Assembly: GCF_022201045.2 (NCBI RefSeq)
Contig: NC_068561.1
Span: 24,620,501 to 24,684,500, forward strand
Reading direction: 5' to 3'
Length of the DNA stretch: 64,000 nucleotides
From: Citrus sinensis
Lineage: Eukaryota; Streptophyta; Magnoliopsida; Sapindales; Rutaceae
A program made the position numbers and the translations under genes. A model generated the notes under the pieces. It worked only from the letters and a program-made list of their open reading frames with translations, did no database searches and was not told the DNA's origin. Shown piece after piece: positions 7,901 to 60,600 of this stretch (position 1 is its first letter; every line of letters begins with the position of its first letter).

Positions 7901-10599
7901 GATTATTCTACTCATGCACAATAATTTGAATATCTCCTTATCAAAGTATCAAATAAGTACGTAATAATGGAAAAAAAAAAAAGAAAAAAGAATCCCTGCA
8001 TTTTCAAACCTAGGGGAAAAAAATGAATGAGAAGAAGCCCGTAAAACAACAAAAAAGCATACATGCAGCCTTCCAAATATGTTGCGCAAACCCCTTGAAA
8101 ACTAAAATGTATATTCTACAAAAAACTGTGTACCAACATTTCCATCCAATGTCAATTAAAATTTCAAAGCCACACAAACCTCAGCTTCTTCAATAGCATC
8201 TTCTCCCATGCCCCATGAGATACCATCAGCACAAGAAGCGTCTAGTCTTGCTCGTCGAAGTGAATCCTCTTGATCTAATATCTCTTGTTGAATCTTAGAT
8301 TCTCTAATGAGGTTCAAGTCTTTTTCCTGTGAAAAAAAAAAAAAAAAACACTATAGCAATCCAAACAAATATGCAAACTACGCATGATACATTGATTATG
8401 GGAATAAACTTGTTACATCAGAAAAATAACTATATTTATGCTATAAATGCTTTAATTCACCCCCTCCCACTCCTGCTCCCACCAAAAATTTAAAAATTTA
8501 GGTTATTAAAAAGGGAACAGCGCTAATAAACAGAGATACGAAATTTCCCTGTATCTATCTTAATCTATTAAAAATGGAAAGGAAAGATGGAATAAAAGAG
8601 CAGCATCCTAGAAAATAAAGAAAACAGAAACAATTCCAAAAAAACTACTTTCTAACTTAATCTAATAAAAATGGGAATATCATATCTCATATTGAACTGA
8701 TCAATATATATCAAACAAAAATTACTATATTTGTATAAGACTTACCGGTGGCATCAAGTCAGGTGGTCCTTGGAAAATGTACAGTCGAGATGATCTGTGA
8801 AGGAATAACAGAAACATATAGAGAAATTAATCAGATAAGTTAAGAATCACAAAGTCCCAGTAATAGTCTCATATAATCAAAAAAAAAAAAAAAGAACCAC
8901 AAAGTCAAATGTAGTAAAGATAAAGAATTAATAAAAGTGACACCATGACCCAAACTAAACTAGGAATATAGATGAGCTTGTAAGCAAAAATTGACACATG
9001 AAATAACATAGCAAAAATTGACACATGAAATAACATAGCAAAAATTGACACATGAAATAACATGACATTGTCAATACAATCACATATTATTTCACTTACT
9101 GGCCAAAACGAATGACATCACCAACGTGTAAGTCCACATAAACCCTTTTCTCTACCTGTTGAATTGGAAAACAATTAAAGGAGGTCAGGAACATGATACT
9201 ACAAATTGACCAATAATCATATAGAATCAAGAAAGGAAAAAGGGAGAGTGAGAGTGAGAGTGAGAGTTTTACAGAAAAGATTATCAGAAAGAATAAGTTA
9301 GTATCAAACAAGAAACTTTTATTTGGTCATATAAGAAAGCTAACAAATTCTAATGTCTAAATGCCATAAACACTGAATTTGATGATTTCAATCTAAAAAG
9401 GCTACAAGTTTTTCTCATATAGTCACCATGATTTTGAAAATGCAAATCACTAACCATAACAAAATGACAAAGTAAAAATTGAAAATTTTTTATAATGTAT
9501 AGCAGGTCTTTCATTGACAGTCTAAATGGAACTAACACAGCAACCCAATGAAAAATCAAATCTGAAACTTCCAGCAAGAAGTTCAAAGAGGAATCTCCGT
9601 TTAAGAACCTGATACTAATGAAAAATGCAGTGCACTTAGATATATTTAAAAATACATTAACTAAAGAGCAGTTTGAACTTTGATACCTGGTTCTTGTTAA
9701 TAAAAGTACCATGAGTACTGCCCACATCATAAAGATATGCATCTCCACTTCTTTTAAATTGAATCACTGGCAATGAGAAACATTAGTATAAGTTACAACA
9801 ACGTGACTAGCATCATCAACGCACATGAAAAAAGAAAGAAAATTTCTAGTAAATCTGTGCCAATGAAACTCTACTTATAGGTGGGTGGATGATTGGTAAA
9901 CATAAGCTGCCAAGTGAAATTAAGTGTTTGCTAAAATCGTTGGCTTTTAAACTCTTTAAATCAAGCAGAAGTACAACAGTTACAAATACAATCTCAAAGG
10001 TCAAAAAAATCAACTTAACAGCAAGAAGAGCAGGTCAAAAGCAGTGAAGAGAGCAAGAATTAAATTGCATACCAGCATGAAACCGAGAAATTGTAGAGTG
10101 CTCGAGTACAAAATCGCAGAGGTCAACCCGTCCAAACATATACGCGCCCTTATTGCACCTGCACAACAACCATGGCATTTCACATTAACAATCAAAAGGT
10201 TACGTATTTGGCTCAATGGAAGATATTATAGTTGAAAGGAAGTAACGTAACTTACACGTCATATTGATCAACAATGGATCCATCTTTCAGCACTTCAAGG
10301 TAGAATTTATGGCAGGGTGACCCACTCCATTCAGGAATCTTGTAAGGCACGGAGCTCGGCTGTTTCTGCACTGGAGCTGCAAGTGAATTAGGTTGCTCTT
10401 CTTGATGTGGTGTATCGTTTGAGGAATTTTCGGTGTTAGGGTTTGGGTTTTTGGCAGGAGGTGGACCCATTGGGGCTACTGTCGTTGTCGCTGTTGAACA
10501 GGAGGCTGGGGCCTCTTCTGCTGGTGCTGGGAGTTTTGGCGGCGGAGGTGGCACGTCCGTGACGGTGGAGGCGTCGGGGTCGGCGTCGGTGGTTGTCAT
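4980..10599 (-). CDS. Kanadaptin-like FHA-domain protein (SLC4A1AP homologue)
   Basis: Complete gene of 737 aa in 12 exons, listed 5' to 3' on the minus strand: 10599-10256, 10158-10073, 9766-9687, 9155-9100, 8794-8746, 8326-8180, 7525-7430, 7284-7171, 7029-6899, 6632-6391, 5985-5167, 5029-4980. The start is the first Met before a Pro/Ala-rich low-complexity N-terminus (residues about 1-85). An FHA phosphopeptide-binding domain follows (about 90-205), with GRVDLCDFVLEHSTISRFHA and VGSTHGTFIN carrying the conserved Gly-Arg, Ser-Arg-His and Gly-Ser-His-Gly positions. A charged helical middle comes next (KMEDKKELFEKEKDKMASE type), then the conserved tail with RRVLGPEKPAFL and a C-terminus LNKRFGY. 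Animal kanadaptin is a mostly nuclear FHA protein of uncertain function; plant homologues are little studied. Exon 7 ends in a GC donor. Introns carry a 27-nt minisatellite and a possible MITE copy. Confidence 0.93.
8984..9064. repeat. Minisatellite, 27-nt unit x 3
   Basis: Three head-to-tail copies of a 27-nt unit beginning GCAAAAATTGACACATGAAA, at 8984-9010, 9011-9037 and 9038-9064. The copies are identical except for the last base. It lies in a kanadaptin intron, close downstream (in gene sense) of the 56-nt exon 9155-9100. Near-identity suggests a recent duplication. Confidence 0.93.
9245..9266. repeat. Purine microsatellite (GAGAGT)n
   Basis: A run of GAGAGT/GAGTGA repeats inside a kanadaptin intron. 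On the gene strand it is a CT-rich tract upstream of the acceptor for exon 9155-9100, so it may contribute to the polypyrimidine region. Confidence 0.7.
9868..9990. repeat. Dispersed intronic repeat, possible MITE fragment (copy 1)
   Basis: This stretch shares ordered blocks with 52945-53065 in an AP-4 epsilon intron: a GTGGGTGGATGAT-like block, AAACATAAGCTGCCAA, then CAAGCAGAAGTACAACAGTT followed by ACAAA. Two diverged copies in unrelated introns point to a dispersed repeat. I could not define terminal repeats or a target duplication. Confidence 0.4.
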
Positions 10600-52700: not shown

Positions 52701-53731
52701 AGCTGATTACTAAATCCTTATAAGAATTAACATCTACCGTTATCAGATCAAAAAGAGGGCACAGTGTTGCACCCATCACCCCAGGGTCATTATCACAAAG
52801 CCTCTGCAACAAATGAAACCACACTTACAAATTACATAGAGTTTCAGATACCCCACGAGCAGAAAAGCTATCATGTACTAACAGGTTAAAAACAGCTAAA
52901 ATCATACACTATGTAAAAGTTCGGGATTGGAGTGCTGTAGATTTTTAACGATAAGTGAGTGGGTGATCAGAAAACATTAGCTGCCAAATAAAAGTGGTGG
53001 TTACTGCTTATCAAGTTTTTCTTTGAAAATTAAGCAGAGGCAGAACAATTACAAAAAAGTTCTAAATCAGGATTAACTCATTGTCATCATTAAGAACATC
53101 CACATTTGAATACTGTACTTAAAATAATAAGTATGTCGTTCACAAAAAGGTCACGGGCACCCACCTTTCGAAAATTGGAAACGAGATGCTGAACTGAAGA
53201 AGGAGACTTCTGATAAAACCTATGAAGGGCCATGATAGCTTTCCTCCTGACAGCCTCTTTGGAATGACCCAAAAGCTCAACAACCTGCGGCAAAACCGCA
53301 GGGATGGTCTCTTCATTAATCAACTTACAAACAGCATTAAGCGCGGCGCAAACGATCAAATAGTTATCGGATTTGAGGTCCTTCTGAATGGTATTAACAA
53401 TCAAGATGATCAAATCATGATCCTCGTTCAAGAACAGAGTGACGGCCAAATACCCAGTTCGTTTAAGGACCAAATTGTCATCGTGGGTCATCTTGACGGC
53501 GTGGATGTAGCCAAAGGAGGCGTCGTGGCCGAGCATCTCGACGTAGACGAGACGAATGATATACTCTTTCATCTTGCGCTTGGGGATGTCCGGTTCGGAG
53601 ATGCGGCGCTTGAGAGTCTCGATCTCGTTGAGGACAATTCGGTCTTCTTCGGCTTTGGATCGGGCTTCGCCGATTGATTTGACGAGGTCGAGGAACTCCT
53701 TTGATTGACCGAACCCGCCTTGGGAGCCCAT
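46728..53731 (-). CDS. AP4E: AP-4 complex subunit epsilon
   Basis: Large adaptin of the AP-4 coat, which sorts cargo at the trans-Golgi network (in plants, vacuolar storage proteins). It has 969 codons in 11 exons on the minus strand: 53731-53165, 52803-52618, 52212-51997, 51901-51791, 50998-50801, 50693-50562, 50341-50285, 50200-50084, 49473-49396, 48858-48715, 47831-46728. All are GT-AG and in frame. The adaptin N-terminal alpha-solenoid spans about residues 1-600 (RKMKEYIIRLVYVEMLGHDA; NIKVAHNLMRLIAEGFGEDD). The last exon encodes a Pro/Ser-rich hinge with PPPDLLDLGEPA and a C-terminal MGVTPTSPNPNLFKDLLG. ATG 53731-53729 (MGSQGGFGQ) is the first in-frame Met. Upstream codons continue the family N-terminus but have CTG where Met is expected; see findings. 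There is a TGA seven codons before that CTG. Confidence 0.94.
52945..53065. repeat. Dispersed intronic repeat, possible MITE fragment (copy 2)
   Basis: In intron 1 of AP-4 epsilon, the blocks GTGAGTGGGTGATCAG, AAACATTAGCTGCCAA and TTAAGCAGAGGCAGAACAAT occur in the same order and orientation as in the kanadaptin intron at 9868-9990. Confidence 0.4.
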
Positions 53732-54119
53732 TGCGAGCTCCCTTCCTATTGTCTTCAATTGCTCCAGCTTTGCCTGTTGCTTTGATCAATTATTTTTCCA
53801 GCTTCAAAATTAGTAATAGTACTCAAAGTTAGTTGCTCTTGTGGGAGTGAATTGTGTAATGACTAATGAGGGTTTTCTTTTGATTGTGCTGATGTCGAGC
53901 TGAGTGTACGTGGAAGAAGAATTTAGATCTGAAATATTTGTGTGATTGTGGAGAGAGGTTTCTGTTTTTGCACGTTGTTTTGTTAAACAAGAAAATGAGA
54001 CAACAGTAAGTTGGTTTTGTTGGTGGGTTCTATGATGCCACTCATTTTCTTGTTTGTTAACGAAGTTTTTTTTTTTTTTTTGCCCCCAAGAGTTTTTGAA
54101 ATAAGAGATTTTAATATTC
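53732..54119. promoter_or_regulatory. AP-4 epsilon leader and promoter region
   Basis: 388 bp between the AP-4 epsilon start codon and the transposon nest. The first 100 bp read as 5' UTR. No TATA box is obvious, and a T run of about 18 lies near 54065. The transposon nest begins so close that it may supply distal promoter sequence. Confidence 0.45.
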
Positions 54120-55394
54120 GGGTGTGTTTAGTATACTGTATTATATTATATTATTTTAATATACATATATGGTATTATATTGAATTATATTAACATTAAA
54201 TTATAATGACGTTGTACAACGTTCAATGTAATACTGTATTATATTAATTTTTAATTATATTGTGTTTCATACTGTAATGTATTAATTTCTTTTTTATTAA
54301 TTTAAATGATATACATTTAGAAAACAATAGTTATTAACATTTTTTATTTATTAAAAAATATATTATTTATTTATTTACTTTTTTTTTAATTTCCTCTTTC
54401 TTTTTTTTTCTTTTCTTTAGATACTGCTTCCTCTTTTCACTCCCTCCATCTTCTCCATGTATTTTTCTTCTTCATTCAATTTTGTTCTCTTTTTCTCTTT
54501 CTTCATCTTCATTTCATTTTCTTTTTTTCCTCCTTTTCTTCTATTTTCTTTGTCTTCTTCAATTTGTTTTCCTTTTTTCTTTTCCTCTTTTTCTCCTTCT
54601 TTCTTCCTCTTCTATGGGCTTTTATCTTCTCCACAGTGAAGACATCTTTTATGGAGAGTGGCTATGGTGTCGCACGACATTGTAAAAGCGTCAGTAATGG
54701 CATCGAGCGATGATTGTCAAGTTGATTTGGTGGTGCTGGATTGGAGTTAATTGCGTCCGGTACACCTCCATACTTCAAAAATTATCTCAATACCCTAAAA
54801 TATGTTTTTGCCAAAATTTTCATCAATACCCTTTAAAAACTGATAGGAAATTACTAAGCTATCCTCATTTTAAAATATTTTAACTCAACGGACAGCACCT
54901 CTCCCCCCTCTACTGAAGCAAACAAACACTCATCTGCTGCAATTCCCTCCATTATCAAACTCAAACAAACAAACACTGCAATTCCCTCACCGGCATCACC
55001 TCTGCAATTCCCTCACCGGCATCACCTCTACCGAAACAAATATTCATTCTCCATACATGGTAAATCGAACTTCAACACGAGCAAACTAAGTTTGAGAAGG
55101 GGAAGCTGCCACAACTGAGAAAGAGAAGCCTAGTTCATCGCTACATAATCGTCGGCGAGAGCTGATCCTTTACTGTAAAATGGTCATAATTTAACTAGTT
55201 GAGATAAGTAATTCTCTATAAATAGTTTTCTTGTTGATATTCAGGGAAAAAAAAACAAAAAGTTAGGGTTTATATAGAAAAAATAGATTAATTAGTTGCG
55301 GGTCTCTCATTACATGTTCAAAAATAAATTTCTAGTTGTTTTGCTGTATGCAAATTGTGAAAAATTGATGGATTGTGCTGATTATAATTTTGTC

Positions 55395-55500
55395 ATGTAA
55401 CACACGATTTGGTCGTGTAAGGTTATGTAGGATTCAAGGTCGTGTATTACACGGCTTTCATGTATTGCACTTACACGACCTTCATGTATTACACGACTTT
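55395..55500. repeat. TACACGAC motif cluster 1
   Basis: Several copies of TTACACGAC-like words and their complement GTCGTGTAA occur irregularly within about 105 bp, for example GGTCGTGTAAGG, TTACACGACC and TTACACGACT. It lies inside the Mutator-like element, left of the Ulp1 relic. Confidence 0.7.
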
Positions 55501-55586
55501 TTTCACTATTGTTAATTCATTATAATAACTTAGTTGTTTGTGCACTGAAAACTTGCAAAATTCATTGTTTTTTCAGCAAAAGCTTT

Positions 55587-55740
55587 TGTTGAAGTATGAG
55601 ATTGTGGTGTGTTTGTTTTGCGTTACCTGGACACACTTGCATGTGGTGAAGATATTCAAACAAATTGTACGCAAGCACATGTCTTTTCTTATCGCAAGCA
55701 ACTAGCTGAAAGACTTTTCTATGACCAGTCATTACTTTAA
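55587..55740 (+). pseudogene. Ulp1-type cysteine protease C-terminal fragment
   Basis: The frame reads DCGVFVLRYLDTLACGED and continues as IQTNCTQ to SYRKQLAERLFYDQSLL and a stop. DCGVF with its Cys is the nucleophile motif of SUMO/NEDD8 proteases of the Ulp1 (C48) family. The His and Asp part of the triad would lie upstream, where no continuous frame remains. It is therefore a remnant of the ULP gene carried by the surrounding Mutator-like element. Confidence 0.7.
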
Positions 55741-55910
55741 GAGAACAACTAACATGTGAGTATTGTTTTTTAAAATAAAGTCATTGCTGGTGGAAATAGT
55801 TTGGTTTCTCAATATGAAATTTTATAAGCGATCACTGTCAGTGGTCCTGGGCTGTTAATAGGAAGAATTAACTAAAGTGTTTTTTTTCAACCAGCATTTG
55901 ATTAAGAGTT

Positions 55911-56354
55911 GATGTGATGACTCTCTTCCCATGAAGGACGAGGTGAAGGTTGTCTATCCACCGGAACTGTCAAAATTGATCTACGTTCAAAAGTAATGCA
56001 GAGCGAGTTTCTAAACTCCATTCCACTAGCTACTTCCTCTAAGAAAAATTCCACATCATCATGGGTTTGAATTGTAACTGGTGGCATATGATCAGATGTC
56101 TTAAGTTTGAACTTCATTGTGATTTCAAATTCCGAAGTATCTATATCAATAACTTCAGCTATCTTCTCCACCAATTCGGCATATGTTGTTGATCGTGGTA
56201 TCATTATCCCTTTAGCCTTGAAACATTTGAACTTATACTCGTCATTTTGCTCAATCCATTCACTATTGAAGAGAATAAGCACACGTACCAAAACCATATT
56301 TGATGATACAATAAAAACAATAATATCAAATTTCATATACAAGTAAGTACACAA
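55911..56354 (-). pseudogene. Mutator-like transposase N-terminal (PB1-like) fragment
   Basis: A frame of about 150 codons reads RVLILFNSEWIEQNDEYKFK, then GIMIPRSTTYAELVEKIAEV, EITMKFKLKT and HDDVEFFLEEV. This is the PB1-like N-terminal region found in many plant Mutator-like transposases. It stops at 55911, and the zinc-finger, DDE transposase core and SWIM domains that should follow are missing. The frame itself is intact, and its translation product would have no catalytic domain. Confidence 0.7.
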
Positions 56355-56460
56355 CCTACGCGACTATAATACTTACACGACTTACACGACTATATTTCTT
56401 ACATGACCTACACGACTTACACGACCTACATGACTAACTATATGACGTACATGGTATCAA
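56346..56460. repeat. TACACGAC motif cluster 2
   Basis: About eight CTTACACGAC/CCTACACGAC-like words in nearly head-to-tail order, some mutated to TACATGAC or TACGCGAC. It begins just upstream of the transposase-fragment frame on the minus strand. Confidence 0.75.
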
Positions 56461-57211
56461 AAGAATGCACGACGCGAAACATTTTCGCCATAAATTAGTT
56501 ATATTGCTGAAAAAAATAATTAAACAACCTACATTGCATATATTTCTACATATAAGAAAAAATGGTGAAAATAAAACATTGTAATGCGAGGAAAATTTCT
56601 AAATTTTCTTAAAAATTAAAAAATTTAAAACCCAACAACATTAACATACCTTATTGGGTTGTTTAATAAGCAATGCATCTTTAAAGAAAGAGTGGGTGTT
56701 AAAGAAATGAATACATAATTGTATTTGTGTAAGAAGTTATGAGATATTTTGAGAGATTCTAAGAGATTTTGAAAGAATCGACAGCAAAAATGGAGTTGGG
56801 TGAAAGAAATGAGGAAAGGAATATGAAGACAATTCATTGAGTGAATTTGATGCATTCATTAAGGGTATTTCCGATTTTACTCACATTTGTTAGGGTATCC
56901 ATGAAAACCAAAAAGGAAGGAGTTATTTAAATAATTTTAAAACTATTAAAGGGTATTTAATTAAAAAACCCCACTGGATTGGGTGATATGAATTTCATCG
57001 TGAACATGCTACAAAATTTTATCAATTTTTATTTTCTTGATTTGCTCTAATATGTCCCCCCTCGAATTTGGTTTATGCAGATTTGACCGCATTAGTTTAC
57101 TAAGTTAATACAATATCACACCAGTTAAATTTAACGCTAAACATGAGTTAGTGTTAAGTTAATAGAAAACAATATTTTAATCTTATGCTGTGCGGGATAC
57201 CAAACACGCCC

Positions 57212-57686
57212 TTAGGTTATAACAATATTGCTTGTAGAAAAACCATCTCGTCCTTCAATAGAATTCAAAAGCAAAAAGAGCGACAAGTTTTTGTAGCAAT
57301 TTATTAATTTGTCCAAAAGGAAAAATAAAAAATGATGTACGGAAAGGCTTAAATCCCATTGGATTCTTAATGAGCCTAAAAATGATACCGGACCAAGCCC
57401 AAGCAAGAACACGGGTCCAGGCTAAAACAAGATCGGGCCCAATCATCACACTATATATGAGAAGTAATTAATTTGTTCAGACATTTTAAAGCAACAAATT
57501 AAAAACACAGAACACGAAATTTTTTATACCAAACAAACACAAAAGAGCGGTTATTAGAATTTTCTTAGAAAATTAAAAATTAAAAAATAAACGAAACAAT
57601 TTCCTTTATAACTTTCCCTCGCTTTCCTTCACTTTCTCGCCATTATTTTCTTGTTCTTCTTCTCGAACTTTTACACAAGAGAGAAG
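57212..57686 (+). promoter_or_regulatory. DCP5 promoter and leader
   Basis: 475 bp between the transposon nest and the DCP5 start codon. The last 80 bp are pyrimidine-rich (CTTTCCCTCGCTTTCC), typical of a plant 5' leader. Confidence 0.45.
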
Positions 57687-60600
57687 ATGACGAGTCCGAA
57701 TACGAAAAATGCACCGGAATCGTATATAGGAAGCTTCATTAGTTTAATTTCTAAGTACGAGATTCGTTACGAAGGCGTCCTTTATCACCTAAACGTCGGT
57801 GATTCCACCATTGGCCTAAAAAATGGTGCGTTTTGCTCTCTCCTTCCGTTCTCTATCTATTACGTTCGTATGTGAAGACTATAATTACTTCAAATGTGTA
57901 TTATCGATTTGACTAGGGTTTGATAACTCTTGTCGTGCGTTTTGTGATTTTTAAGCTGCGCAGTTTTTTATATTTTAATTTTTAGTGAATAAAATGACAG
58001 GTTGTTGACAGATATGAAGCCTTTGCCCTAGGTTAGTGATGTTATGTATGCTAATGTTTAAAGTGCTTTTGAGTAAAATTACTTTATGCAGAAGCACTTA
58101 TAAGTGCTTTTTGGAAAAGCACTACTCAATTTTTCGCCTGTAAGAACTTCAATTAAGTTATTGAAATTCTTAGAAACCACCTCTCATTTGCTTGTGCAAA
58201 AGCATTGTAATGATTTGGTAGAAGATGATTTCTCGGGAGGTCTGACGGACATTCTTTTTGATCTTTTATCTTTTGAATGTTGTTGCAGTAAAGTCTTTTG
58301 GAACAGAGGGACGAAAGAAAGATGGTCCACAAGTACTGCCATCTGAAAGGGTTTATGAATACATTCTTTTCCGGGGAAGCGACATTAAGGTAAATGCAAT
58401 TGTGATTGTTTGTTGTTGCATCCATCTGTTTCTTTCTTTTTGTTATTGGGCCAGCTTTTTAGGGTACATGTGCTATGGAGAAGCAGGATGCTGTAATGCG
58501 ATGTTGTGTTGCTTAGTTCTTGCTTGGGGATGTACATTTTTCTTTTCCTTCATTTTGCTATATTTTCTTGTGTATTCATTGTAGTTCCAGGTAATCGCTG
58601 CATGATGATTATTTCACCTTGAGTATGTATGCTGTCATTTTTATGATATAGATATTCATGTTAATGCCATAAAATAAAAAATAAAATAAAAAACTTATGA
58701 TCAGAGAAGATAAGCACATATAAGTAACTTGGTGGTGTGTACTAATACATTGGTTGTGAAGTATATGTATTAACCCTCATCAATTGTTCTCATTTCAGGA
58801 TTTGGAAGTCAAGTCCTCTCCACCTCCACAAAAGGAGGAGCAGATTTACCAAGATCCCGCTATCATCCAGGTATAGACATGTAGAAATATCTAAGTAGAT
58901 GGTTATTACTCCAGGTTGAAGAGTGAAATTTACTTGTTTTTCCCTTTTCCTATTTTGCAGTCACAGTATGCTGGGATATCTACGAATTCTCCATTATTGT
59001 CGTCGGTTGCGGGCAAAACTTTGACAGAATCAAGTTCATGGCAGGATACTCCTACTTTGACTAGCAAAGCCAGTGCAGGCTCATTGCTTTCACATCAGCC
59101 AGGAACCCAAGTTAGTCAATTTAGTCATCCCCAGGCTGCCCAGAATGCTGCTTCACCATCATTTCCCCTGCCAATTTATTGGCAAGGATACAATGGACCA
59201 TCAAACAATATATCTCCGACTCCTTTTCAATCTTCATCCACTGTATCTTCGCCTTTGACGAGGCCGAACAGAATCTGGACTTCTGAAACTGACTGTTATC
59301 CAGCCTTGGGATCAGTTACTGCATCTGAATCTGCTGCTCATCGGTCGCCATCAATTGCTCCCAGTCATTTAAATCCCAATTTTTCATCTTCTCCTATTCC
59401 AGTACAATGTTCTCCAGCTCCTCTTACGCCTTTCCCCGCATCCTTTAAGGGACCTTTTTCATCTACTGCTGCATACATGACAGATAATAATCCAAATACG
59501 TCTTCGGTTCCCTCTTCTTGCCCAGACACAAAAGCCACTGAAGCTCAAATTTCAGGCAGAGCTGTCCCTGGTCCGGCTCATTCTGCCCAGACCATGAATT
59601 ATCCTGCATCATCTTTTCTAGGTTCCGCTTCTGGTCCCTTGCTATCACCATCTCCATCATTGCTAACTCCTGGTCAGTTAGTTACATCTAGACCGCCTGT
59701 GCTTTCTTCCACACAGGCAATGTATCCTGATAAGAAGGATATGGCTGCTATGCTGCCATCATCATTTAATTCTCCAGCTGCCATATCTCCTCCAGTAACT
59801 CAACTACCATTGTTGCCTTTGCCGACTCCTAATCTACAGGTTGGGATTCTTTTTAGCTGAATTTTTAAATAACTCTGCTCTTGTGACTTGTTCTTATTTG
59901 CTCCACATTCATGTGTAATGCCATTCTTCTAAACAGTTGTGCATTTAGCAATTCTATGGTGCTTTTCTGTTTTTTTTAGGCTCTGCAGAAATATGAAATT
60001 AGCCATCAAGCTTGGATCTTGTTTAGCCAGTATGCAAATATCTATATCATTTATCTTAATTTTGTATTTCCTAAACTTAAGATAAGTTTACTTGAATCCT
60101 TTAATGAAGTGATGATTGTTTGGTAGAGAATCCTTGGAAGTTGAATTTATGAGTGGATGAATATGATAGAGAAGTAAAAAGAAACAGCAATTGTTGGCTT
60201 ATGGGAGAATTAAATATAAGAACTTCTACCATCCTGTGCAAGCCAAAACCCACCTGAGGCTAAATTTGTCATAGGATGATGAAATTAACTTTGATTATTT
60301 TCTATATCTGTATTAGTACTTCTGAGTAATTTTATTTCCTGGCATTTTCTCTTCTCATATGTACGGATGGTTGTAGGGAGAAGTGCTTAAGATTTGCATA
60401 TTTGACTGAAATTTCTAATTGAAGCTTTTTTCAGTCTCAGTCTCAATACTCTACAACAAAGTTCACTGAAGAATTTGATTTTGAAGCCATGAATGAGAAG
60501 TTCAAAAAGGATGAAGTATGGGGTTATCTTGGTAAGGCAAAACAAAGTGGTAAACCAGAGACCATTGAGGATAATACAGCCGATCAGAACTCGAGAGGAA

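Follow-up and report, generated by a model that had tools for sequence, protein, structure and literature searches.

VANC proteins contain a DUF1985 domain, and anti-silencing in eudicots has reportedly been the subject of work by Sasaki et al. in 2022. Excerpts of the published literature describe the Arabidopsis VANC protein as binding short motifs, which lie in tandem repeats in the noncoding parts of its own elements, and so causing loss of methylation (PMC5735166); the motifs given there are YAGTATTAY for VANC21 and AGTTGTCC/AGTTGTAC for VANC6 (PMC5735166, PMC10398659). In the excerpted part of a review, the Ulp1-carrying VANC genes are the KIU genes of Kaonashi (PMC13317346), and such excerpts present the Kaonashi (KI) Mutator-like elements (MULEs) of Arabidopsis as elements without terminal inverted repeats (TIRs) that carry the KIU (Ulp1) gene (PMC2528002, PMC13317346). 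Here we describe a family of MULEs in Citrus sinensis, starting from one dead copy nested in another transposon at 54120-57211 of a 64,000-nucleotide stretch, C6:24620501-24684500 (hereafter the window, meaning the whole stretch analysed), between the genes of a divergent pair. The explanation that we find best as a whole, and hold to be highly probable, is that a non-TIR MULE inserted into an older transposon and that its family carries motif arrays with a predicted role in escape from silencing.

The insertion and its family

A first-pass annotation, made from the letters of the window, had read the locus as a two-level nest in which an outer element with inverted ends is interrupted by an insert at 54745-56973, flanked by the perfect 9-bp direct repeat that is a signature of Mutator insertion. 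The repeat, CTGGATTGG, is indeed present at 54736-54744 and 56974-56982. We searched the genome (299.7 Mb in 11 contigs) with the insert and obtained at least 117 matches, the best 40 of 150 candidates being scored; our sample of 38 stretches held ~39 other family copies, which share the ends G(A/T)GCCAATTGCG (5′) and TTAATTAAAAACCCC (3′). The annotation was right that other copies end together, and one base off in the register: the family comparison shifts the element to 54744-56972 (2,229 bp). The duplication then reads GCTGGATTG at 54735-54743 and ACTGGATTG at 56973-56981, identical at 8 of 9 positions, so that the two registers together cover 54735-54744 on the left and 56973-56982 on the right; a subsequent G-to-A substitution would account for the mismatch, at the first base of the right copy.

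Target duplications were tested in 33 copies, the window copy included, after exclusion of L013 and L039 (3′ match only), the pairs L015 and L029 (one copy in the other) and L040 (5′ end shortened). They were scored by hand over shifts -1 and 0, both of which were read because an additional A precedes CCCC in the window. A perfect duplication in the family register was found for 27 of the 33 copies (9 bp long in 26 of them, and 10 bp at L010/L011), which places duplications of the 9-11 bp expected of MULEs at the family-defined ends; imperfect cases were the window copy, L012 and L046 (8/9), and L017 and L032 (7/9), and L014 has none. The other seven shifts yielded no 9/9 duplication and one 8/9 in these 33 copies. 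L022 and L031 have an identical duplication, GAGATTTTC, and near flanks; the element was probably carried along in a segmental duplication, and the two may represent a single event. At L015 and L029, one family copy apparently lies inside another of the same family, in opposite orientation. As the annotation had stated, the insert has no long TIRs, a candidate feature that we rejected on finding that 9 of the 20 terminal bases pair; its weak subterminal inverted similarity was equalled by 1 of 200 shuffles.

The outer element, a nonautonomous DNA transposon of ~0.86 kb without the insert, is split in two within 54120-57211. Its ends form a 15-bp inverted repeat with 13 of 15 bases paired: the left TIR, GGGTGTGTTTAGTAT, at 54120-54134 (+), is flanked by TTC at 54117-54119, and the right TIR, at 57197-57211 (-), by TTA at 57212-57214. 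Paralogues whose match reaches the insertion site occur at 10 other places in the genome; seven of these were aligned against the two window flanks, fused so as to leave a single 9-mer, and all seven run colinear and uninterrupted through the site with a single target copy, CTGGATTGG occurring once and exact in two of them and once with one altered base in five. The nest claimed by the annotation, with its inverted outer ends, is thereby borne out. The 3-bp flanks of the seven are TTA/TTA in three, TTT/TTT in one, and belong to lost or decayed ends in the remaining three. Short inverted ends of the GGGTGTGTTTGG type are typical of PIF/Harbinger. It is because of such ends, together with the TTA duplications of the aligned paralogues, that we read the outer element as PIF/Harbinger-like (Tourist-like), to which these features point; the annotation's host resembling a miniature inverted-repeat transposable element is kept as to nonautonomy, and refined as to superfamily by the three paralogues with TTA on both sides. 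The target duplications of grapevine PIF elements are given as TAA/TTA in the excerpted text of PMC2528002.

Coding relics and the genes of fuller relatives

Two relics face each other in the insert, as annotated: the C-terminal end of an Ulp1 protease (Peptidase_C48) with DCGVF at 55600-55740 (+), and the N-terminus of a PB1-like MULE transposase at 55902-56363 (-). Of the profile searches that the annotation had proposed for them, the first placed Peptidase_C48 above its cut-off (21.6 bits vs 20.7, E 2.1e-4), and the second left PB1 below it in the window copy (E 1e-3) and in the relative L009, and above it in L011 (E 6e-6). The PB1-like relic is 89% identical to the L009 transposase frame over residues 2-153. 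(Minus-strand copies, L009 included, were read in element orientation.)

The search for fuller relatives, also proposed, led to L009 and to L010+L011, which are themselves incomplete or hold stops or a nested insert. In both, a plus-strand DUF1985–Ulp1 gene converges on a minus-strand PB1–MuDR–MULE–SWIM transposase gene. DUF1985 was detected with E values of 3e-20 in L009 and 1e-24 in L010, and a Peptidase_C48 exon in L010 with 5e-11; the transposase domains above cut-off are MULE (6e-21), Transposase_mut and SWIM (9e-10) in L009, and DBD_Tnp_Mut (1.5e-11) and MULE, besides PB1, in L011. The fuller copies encode a MULE-type transposase, an Ulp1 domain on the opposite strand as in Kaonashi, and, in L009 and L010, a second gene with DUF1985 as in VANC systems. 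L009 is without the Ulp1 catalytic stretch and ~0.45 kb of the transposase, the frame of which has no stop in 490 residues; the N-terminal transposase piece of L010/L011 has one TAA. A 3.8-kb nested insert, without any array motif, lies in the Ulp1 gene of the latter member (L010:1524-5283). In the genome search with the transposase, for which the best 87 of 1,175 candidates were scored, stops interrupt the matches of at least 80% identity that cover more than 155 residues, apart from those of L009 and of the C-terminal L010/L011 piece. The convergent arrangement is common: among 78 transposase matches, a DUF1985 match within 12 kb was convergent for 60, divergent for one, on the same strand for one, and lacking for 16 (the count used 78 of 97 transposase rows and 145 of 150 DUF1985 rows).

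The genome relatives, the shared ends with their duplications, the Pfam matches and the missing long TIRs support the insert as a non-TIR MULE of Kaonashi/VANDAL type, dead and internally deleted. The annotation's term Kaonashi-like is to be kept in this sense, as an assignment by architecture rather than by a tree with the Arabidopsis KI proteins.

Motif arrays in the window family

Motif arrays had no place in the first-pass annotation. Among 8-mers with three or more G or C bases, GTCGTGTA is the most frequent in the insert, with 8 occurrences in two arrays. The 5′ array (55412-55497) has GTCGTGTA at 55412 and 55439 and its complement, TACACGAC, at 55472 and 55490; the 3′ array (56374-56425) has TACACGAC at 56374, 56383, 56409 and 56418. 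In L009 the counterpart of the 5′ array sits directly upstream of the DUF1985 open frame, and that of the 3′ array flanks the open frame of the transposase on its 5′ side. A total of 408 occurrences of GTCGTGTA was counted in 32 copies (6 to 18 per copy), and none in 19.4 kb of their flanks. L009 has 18 occurrences of the 7-mer core (vs 0.4 expected from Markov shuffles), one of them falling in the 3,530 of 5,735 bp counted as coding; like the motifs of VANC systems, the core is tandemly repeated mainly in noncoding parts, 'coding' being defined here by open frames rather than transcripts. In L010+L011 a third motif cluster lies between the genes.

All 29 copies of 2.3-2.4 kb have GTCGTGTA on both sides, 2-7 times on the 5′ side and 3-13 times on the 3′ side. 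An array 26-mer had at least 159 genome matches within two mismatches (reversed control, 0), and the three further 26-mer stretches that we inspected, out of 20 such regions, all hold family copies, one of them continuing L013. We take the short copies to have been recently mobile because three of them, L018, L020 and L042, are nearly identical (Kimura two-parameter distance, K2P, 0-0.005 among them) at different target sites, each with its own duplication.

Arrays at other DUF1985–Ulp1/MULE loci

We picked five more loci, L066, L067, L069, L070 and L071, among the transposase matches; each has DUF1985, Peptidase_C48 above cut-off, a MULE transposase and arrays. In L066, the transposase frame of which is 823 aa long, GTCGAGTA occurs 40 times (41 times with the extension) and GTCGTGTA is absent; there is no overlap between its motif and that of the window family. 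In L067 there are 13 copies of GTCGCACC, which lie next to both genes, and a single GTCGAGTA; L069 has TGTCTCAC and CTGTCGCA motifs with GTCGCACC seven times; L070 has GTCGCACA 29 times and GTCGCACC three times; and L071 has GTCGTGTA 21 times and GTCGAGTA 10 times. Arrays with related, mostly different GTC-core motifs accompany all six groups examined. A rule of one strictly private motif per family was rejected, given the mix in L071 and the presence of GTCGCACC in three loci.

Some further observations concern these loci. With L066 and L068 joined, GGGCGAATTGCG, near 10345-10353 on the other strand, is similar to the window family's 5′ end and may be an end of the L066 element, the other end of which was not found. 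Dozens of MULE transposase matches, those of L067, L069 and L070 among them, are 48-52% identical to the query and have mostly stop-free open frames of ~880-917 aa; many have a convergent DUF1985 match, and the set possibly includes autonomous members. At G000 (C4:19391872-19401900), seven DUF1985 matches, each of which holds a single TAA, follow one another on one strand at a constant spacing of exactly 1,607 bp, with a MULE transposase match nearby (C4:19407098); either the candidate anti-silencing gene has been amplified in tandem there, or the series is an artefact of the assembly.

Deletion history and age of the window copy

The blocks of the window copy are collinear with the fuller relatives and meet at three internal junctions, in agreement with the deletion derivative that the annotation had proposed. 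Junction 1 (55537-55539), where matches stop at query base 50, lacks ~6.2 kb relative to L010/L011, the 3.8-kb nested insert of the latter included; junction 2 (55598-55605; query bases 109-116) lacks ~0.5 kb; and junction 3 (55911-55917; query bases 422-428), with ~2.6 kb missing, joins the end of the Ulp1 gene to the transposase N-terminus, all three being placed by aligned blocks. The blocks at junction 2 have an overlap of as many as 8 bases, in which the relative shows mismatches; clean microhomology was rejected, and the overlap is left uninterpreted because of those mismatches. No other genome match spans any of the three junctions (all 31 first-look candidates scored), and because they occur in no other match, the window copy is not a copy of the common 2.3-kb derivative; a deletion pattern common to the window copy and either the 2.3-kb copies or L040 was rejected, the junctions being different. 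The window copy is a dead derivative from which neither protein can be made, most of both genes having been lost in three internal deletions.

The nearest relatives of the window copy are L009 for its 5′ side and L040 for its 3′ side, each at K2P 0.039. The outer element is at K2P 0.19-0.30 from its seven aligned paralogues, distances ~5-7 times larger than those of the insert. The insert must be the younger because it sits inside the outer element, so that the annotation's datable order of events holds as an order, and not as an absolute date. With substitution rates of 4-5e-9, doubled for long terminal repeats in the excerpted source (PMC7145672), K2P 0.039 would correspond to ~2-5 million years to a common ancestor; this is not an insertion date, depends on an assumed rate and species, and is not relied on.

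The nest stands between the N-terminal coding part of an AP-4 epsilon-like adaptin gene at 53090-53785 (-; Adaptin_N E 1e-34, AP-4 epsilon E 9e-54) and that of an LSM14/DCP5-like gene at 57612-57875 (+; LSM14 E 6e-11). It occupies 3.1 of the ~4.0 kb (53732-57686) separating their likely start codons, which we read from the sequence at ~53731 and ~57687, and may affect a shared promoter.

Explanations for the nest and the arrays

As to the nest, the evidence shows that a non-TIR MULE, of a family that makes 9-bp target duplications, entered an old PIF/Harbinger-like nonautonomous transposon. A lone 9-bp match can occur by chance in 64 kb, but this one lies, to one base, at ends defined by a family most of whose copies have perfect duplications, and the insert-free paralogues are colinear across the site; we regard a coincidental repeat without nested insertion as excluded. 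Whether the element shrank before or after it arrived is evenly balanced in our judgement. It may have come as a fuller element and been deleted in place, never having moved as a deletion derivative, as fits junctions that no other scored match spans; a derivative that moved once, or whose source is lost, would look identical, however, and another derivative, L040, has different internal deletions.

For the arrays, we suggest that the DUF1985–Ulp1 protein is a VANC-type factor, which would bind the GTCGTGTA arrays and lift DNA methylation, and that the arrays would be kept by derivatives because they let a fuller element de-silence and mobilise these copies in trans. We infer such a system because the family has the same kinds of gene in the same opposite-strand order, the same kind of array, and recently mobile derivatives that keep the arrays; by analogy with VANC we give it somewhat better than even chances. 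Several observations weigh against it. No intact partner of the window family was seen among the transposase matches of at least 80% identity (best 87 of 1,175 candidates), because those covering more than 155 residues hold stops or are incomplete. In L066, arrays occur ahead of the transposase and in the space between the two genes, and the DUF1985 side has a lone motif; the 1.0-kb L041 has lost the region of the 5′ array, and that side of L040 has a single motif. Motifs are not strictly private, L071 having both GTCGTGTA and GTCGAGTA, L067 one GTCGAGTA, and L067, L069 and L070 all GTCGCACC. Finally, the end blocks could be kept because they are needed in cis for transposition. The main rival, which we consider rather unlikely, takes the GTCGTGTA arrays for transposase binding sites, subterminal repeats that replace long inverted ends: non-TIR elements still require some recognition sequence, and each end has an array at a distance of ~0.5-0.9 kb, both of which all 29 copies of 2.3-2.4 kb retain. 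Yet L010/L011, L066 and L071 also have arrays between the genes, far from the ends, those of L009 and L067 are close to the 5′ side of both genes, and the motif has mostly the same orientation on both sides rather than an inverted one (358 vs 23 in 31 copies). Less probable still are selectively neutral products of slippage, hitch-hiking in repeat-rich promoters: the copy number of tandem repeats changes fast, and motif numbers do vary among copies, but GTC-core 8-mer arrays recur in the window family and at all five other loci, and an identical motif stands beside both genes in the window family, L067 and L070.

If the VANC-like reading is extended to all six groups, the DUF1985–Ulp1 MULEs with GTC-core motifs (GTCGTGTA, GTCGAGTA, GTCGCACC, TGTCTCAC and GTCGCACA) may have diverged in motif alongside their proteins, with the protein of the window family recognising GTCGTGTA arrays and de-silencing the short derivatives in trans, and L071 as an intermediate in a motif switch; this we offer tentatively, at slightly less than even chances. 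If true, a single genome would hold several related families with diverged recognition arrays, one of them mixed, the presence of the same end blocks in all 2.3-kb derivatives would be explained, and co-evolution of anti-silencing proteins and their targets would be testable outside Arabidopsis.

Comparison with known systems

As a transposon within a transposon, the nest is ordinary and well ordered; what this study adds lies in the motif-array system and in comparing it among six groups. The window family is named in no title among the listed literature on citrus Mutator-like, VANDAL and transposable elements. CitMule of clementine is described, in the excerpted text of PMC4334395, as a non-TIR MULE of ~6.9 kb with 9-bp duplications at 3 of 4 copies; compared by description, it differs in having a FAR1 DNA-binding domain, and 'ulp' is absent from that text. 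The Ulp1-carrying MULEs of grapevine, melon and rice resemble the family in their Ulp1 region, in being partly TIR-less and in 9-nt duplications where these were found, and differ in that motif arrays are unmentioned in the excerpts of PMC2528002. With Kaonashi, as excerpted sources present it, the family shares the lack of long TIRs, an Ulp1 domain opposite in strand to the transposase, and a high copy number; it belongs to another genome, the window copy is dead, and the likeness is one of architecture, not of a protein tree. Its motif, GTCGTGTA, is not that of the VANDAL/VANC systems, its second gene also has Ulp1, and its anti-silencing activity is a prediction, whereas it has in common with those systems, so far as the excerpts describe them, a MULE with a second gene and short tandemly repeated motifs in noncoding parts. 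The VANDAL motifs differ between related families; those of the six groups here are mostly different, with some sharing.

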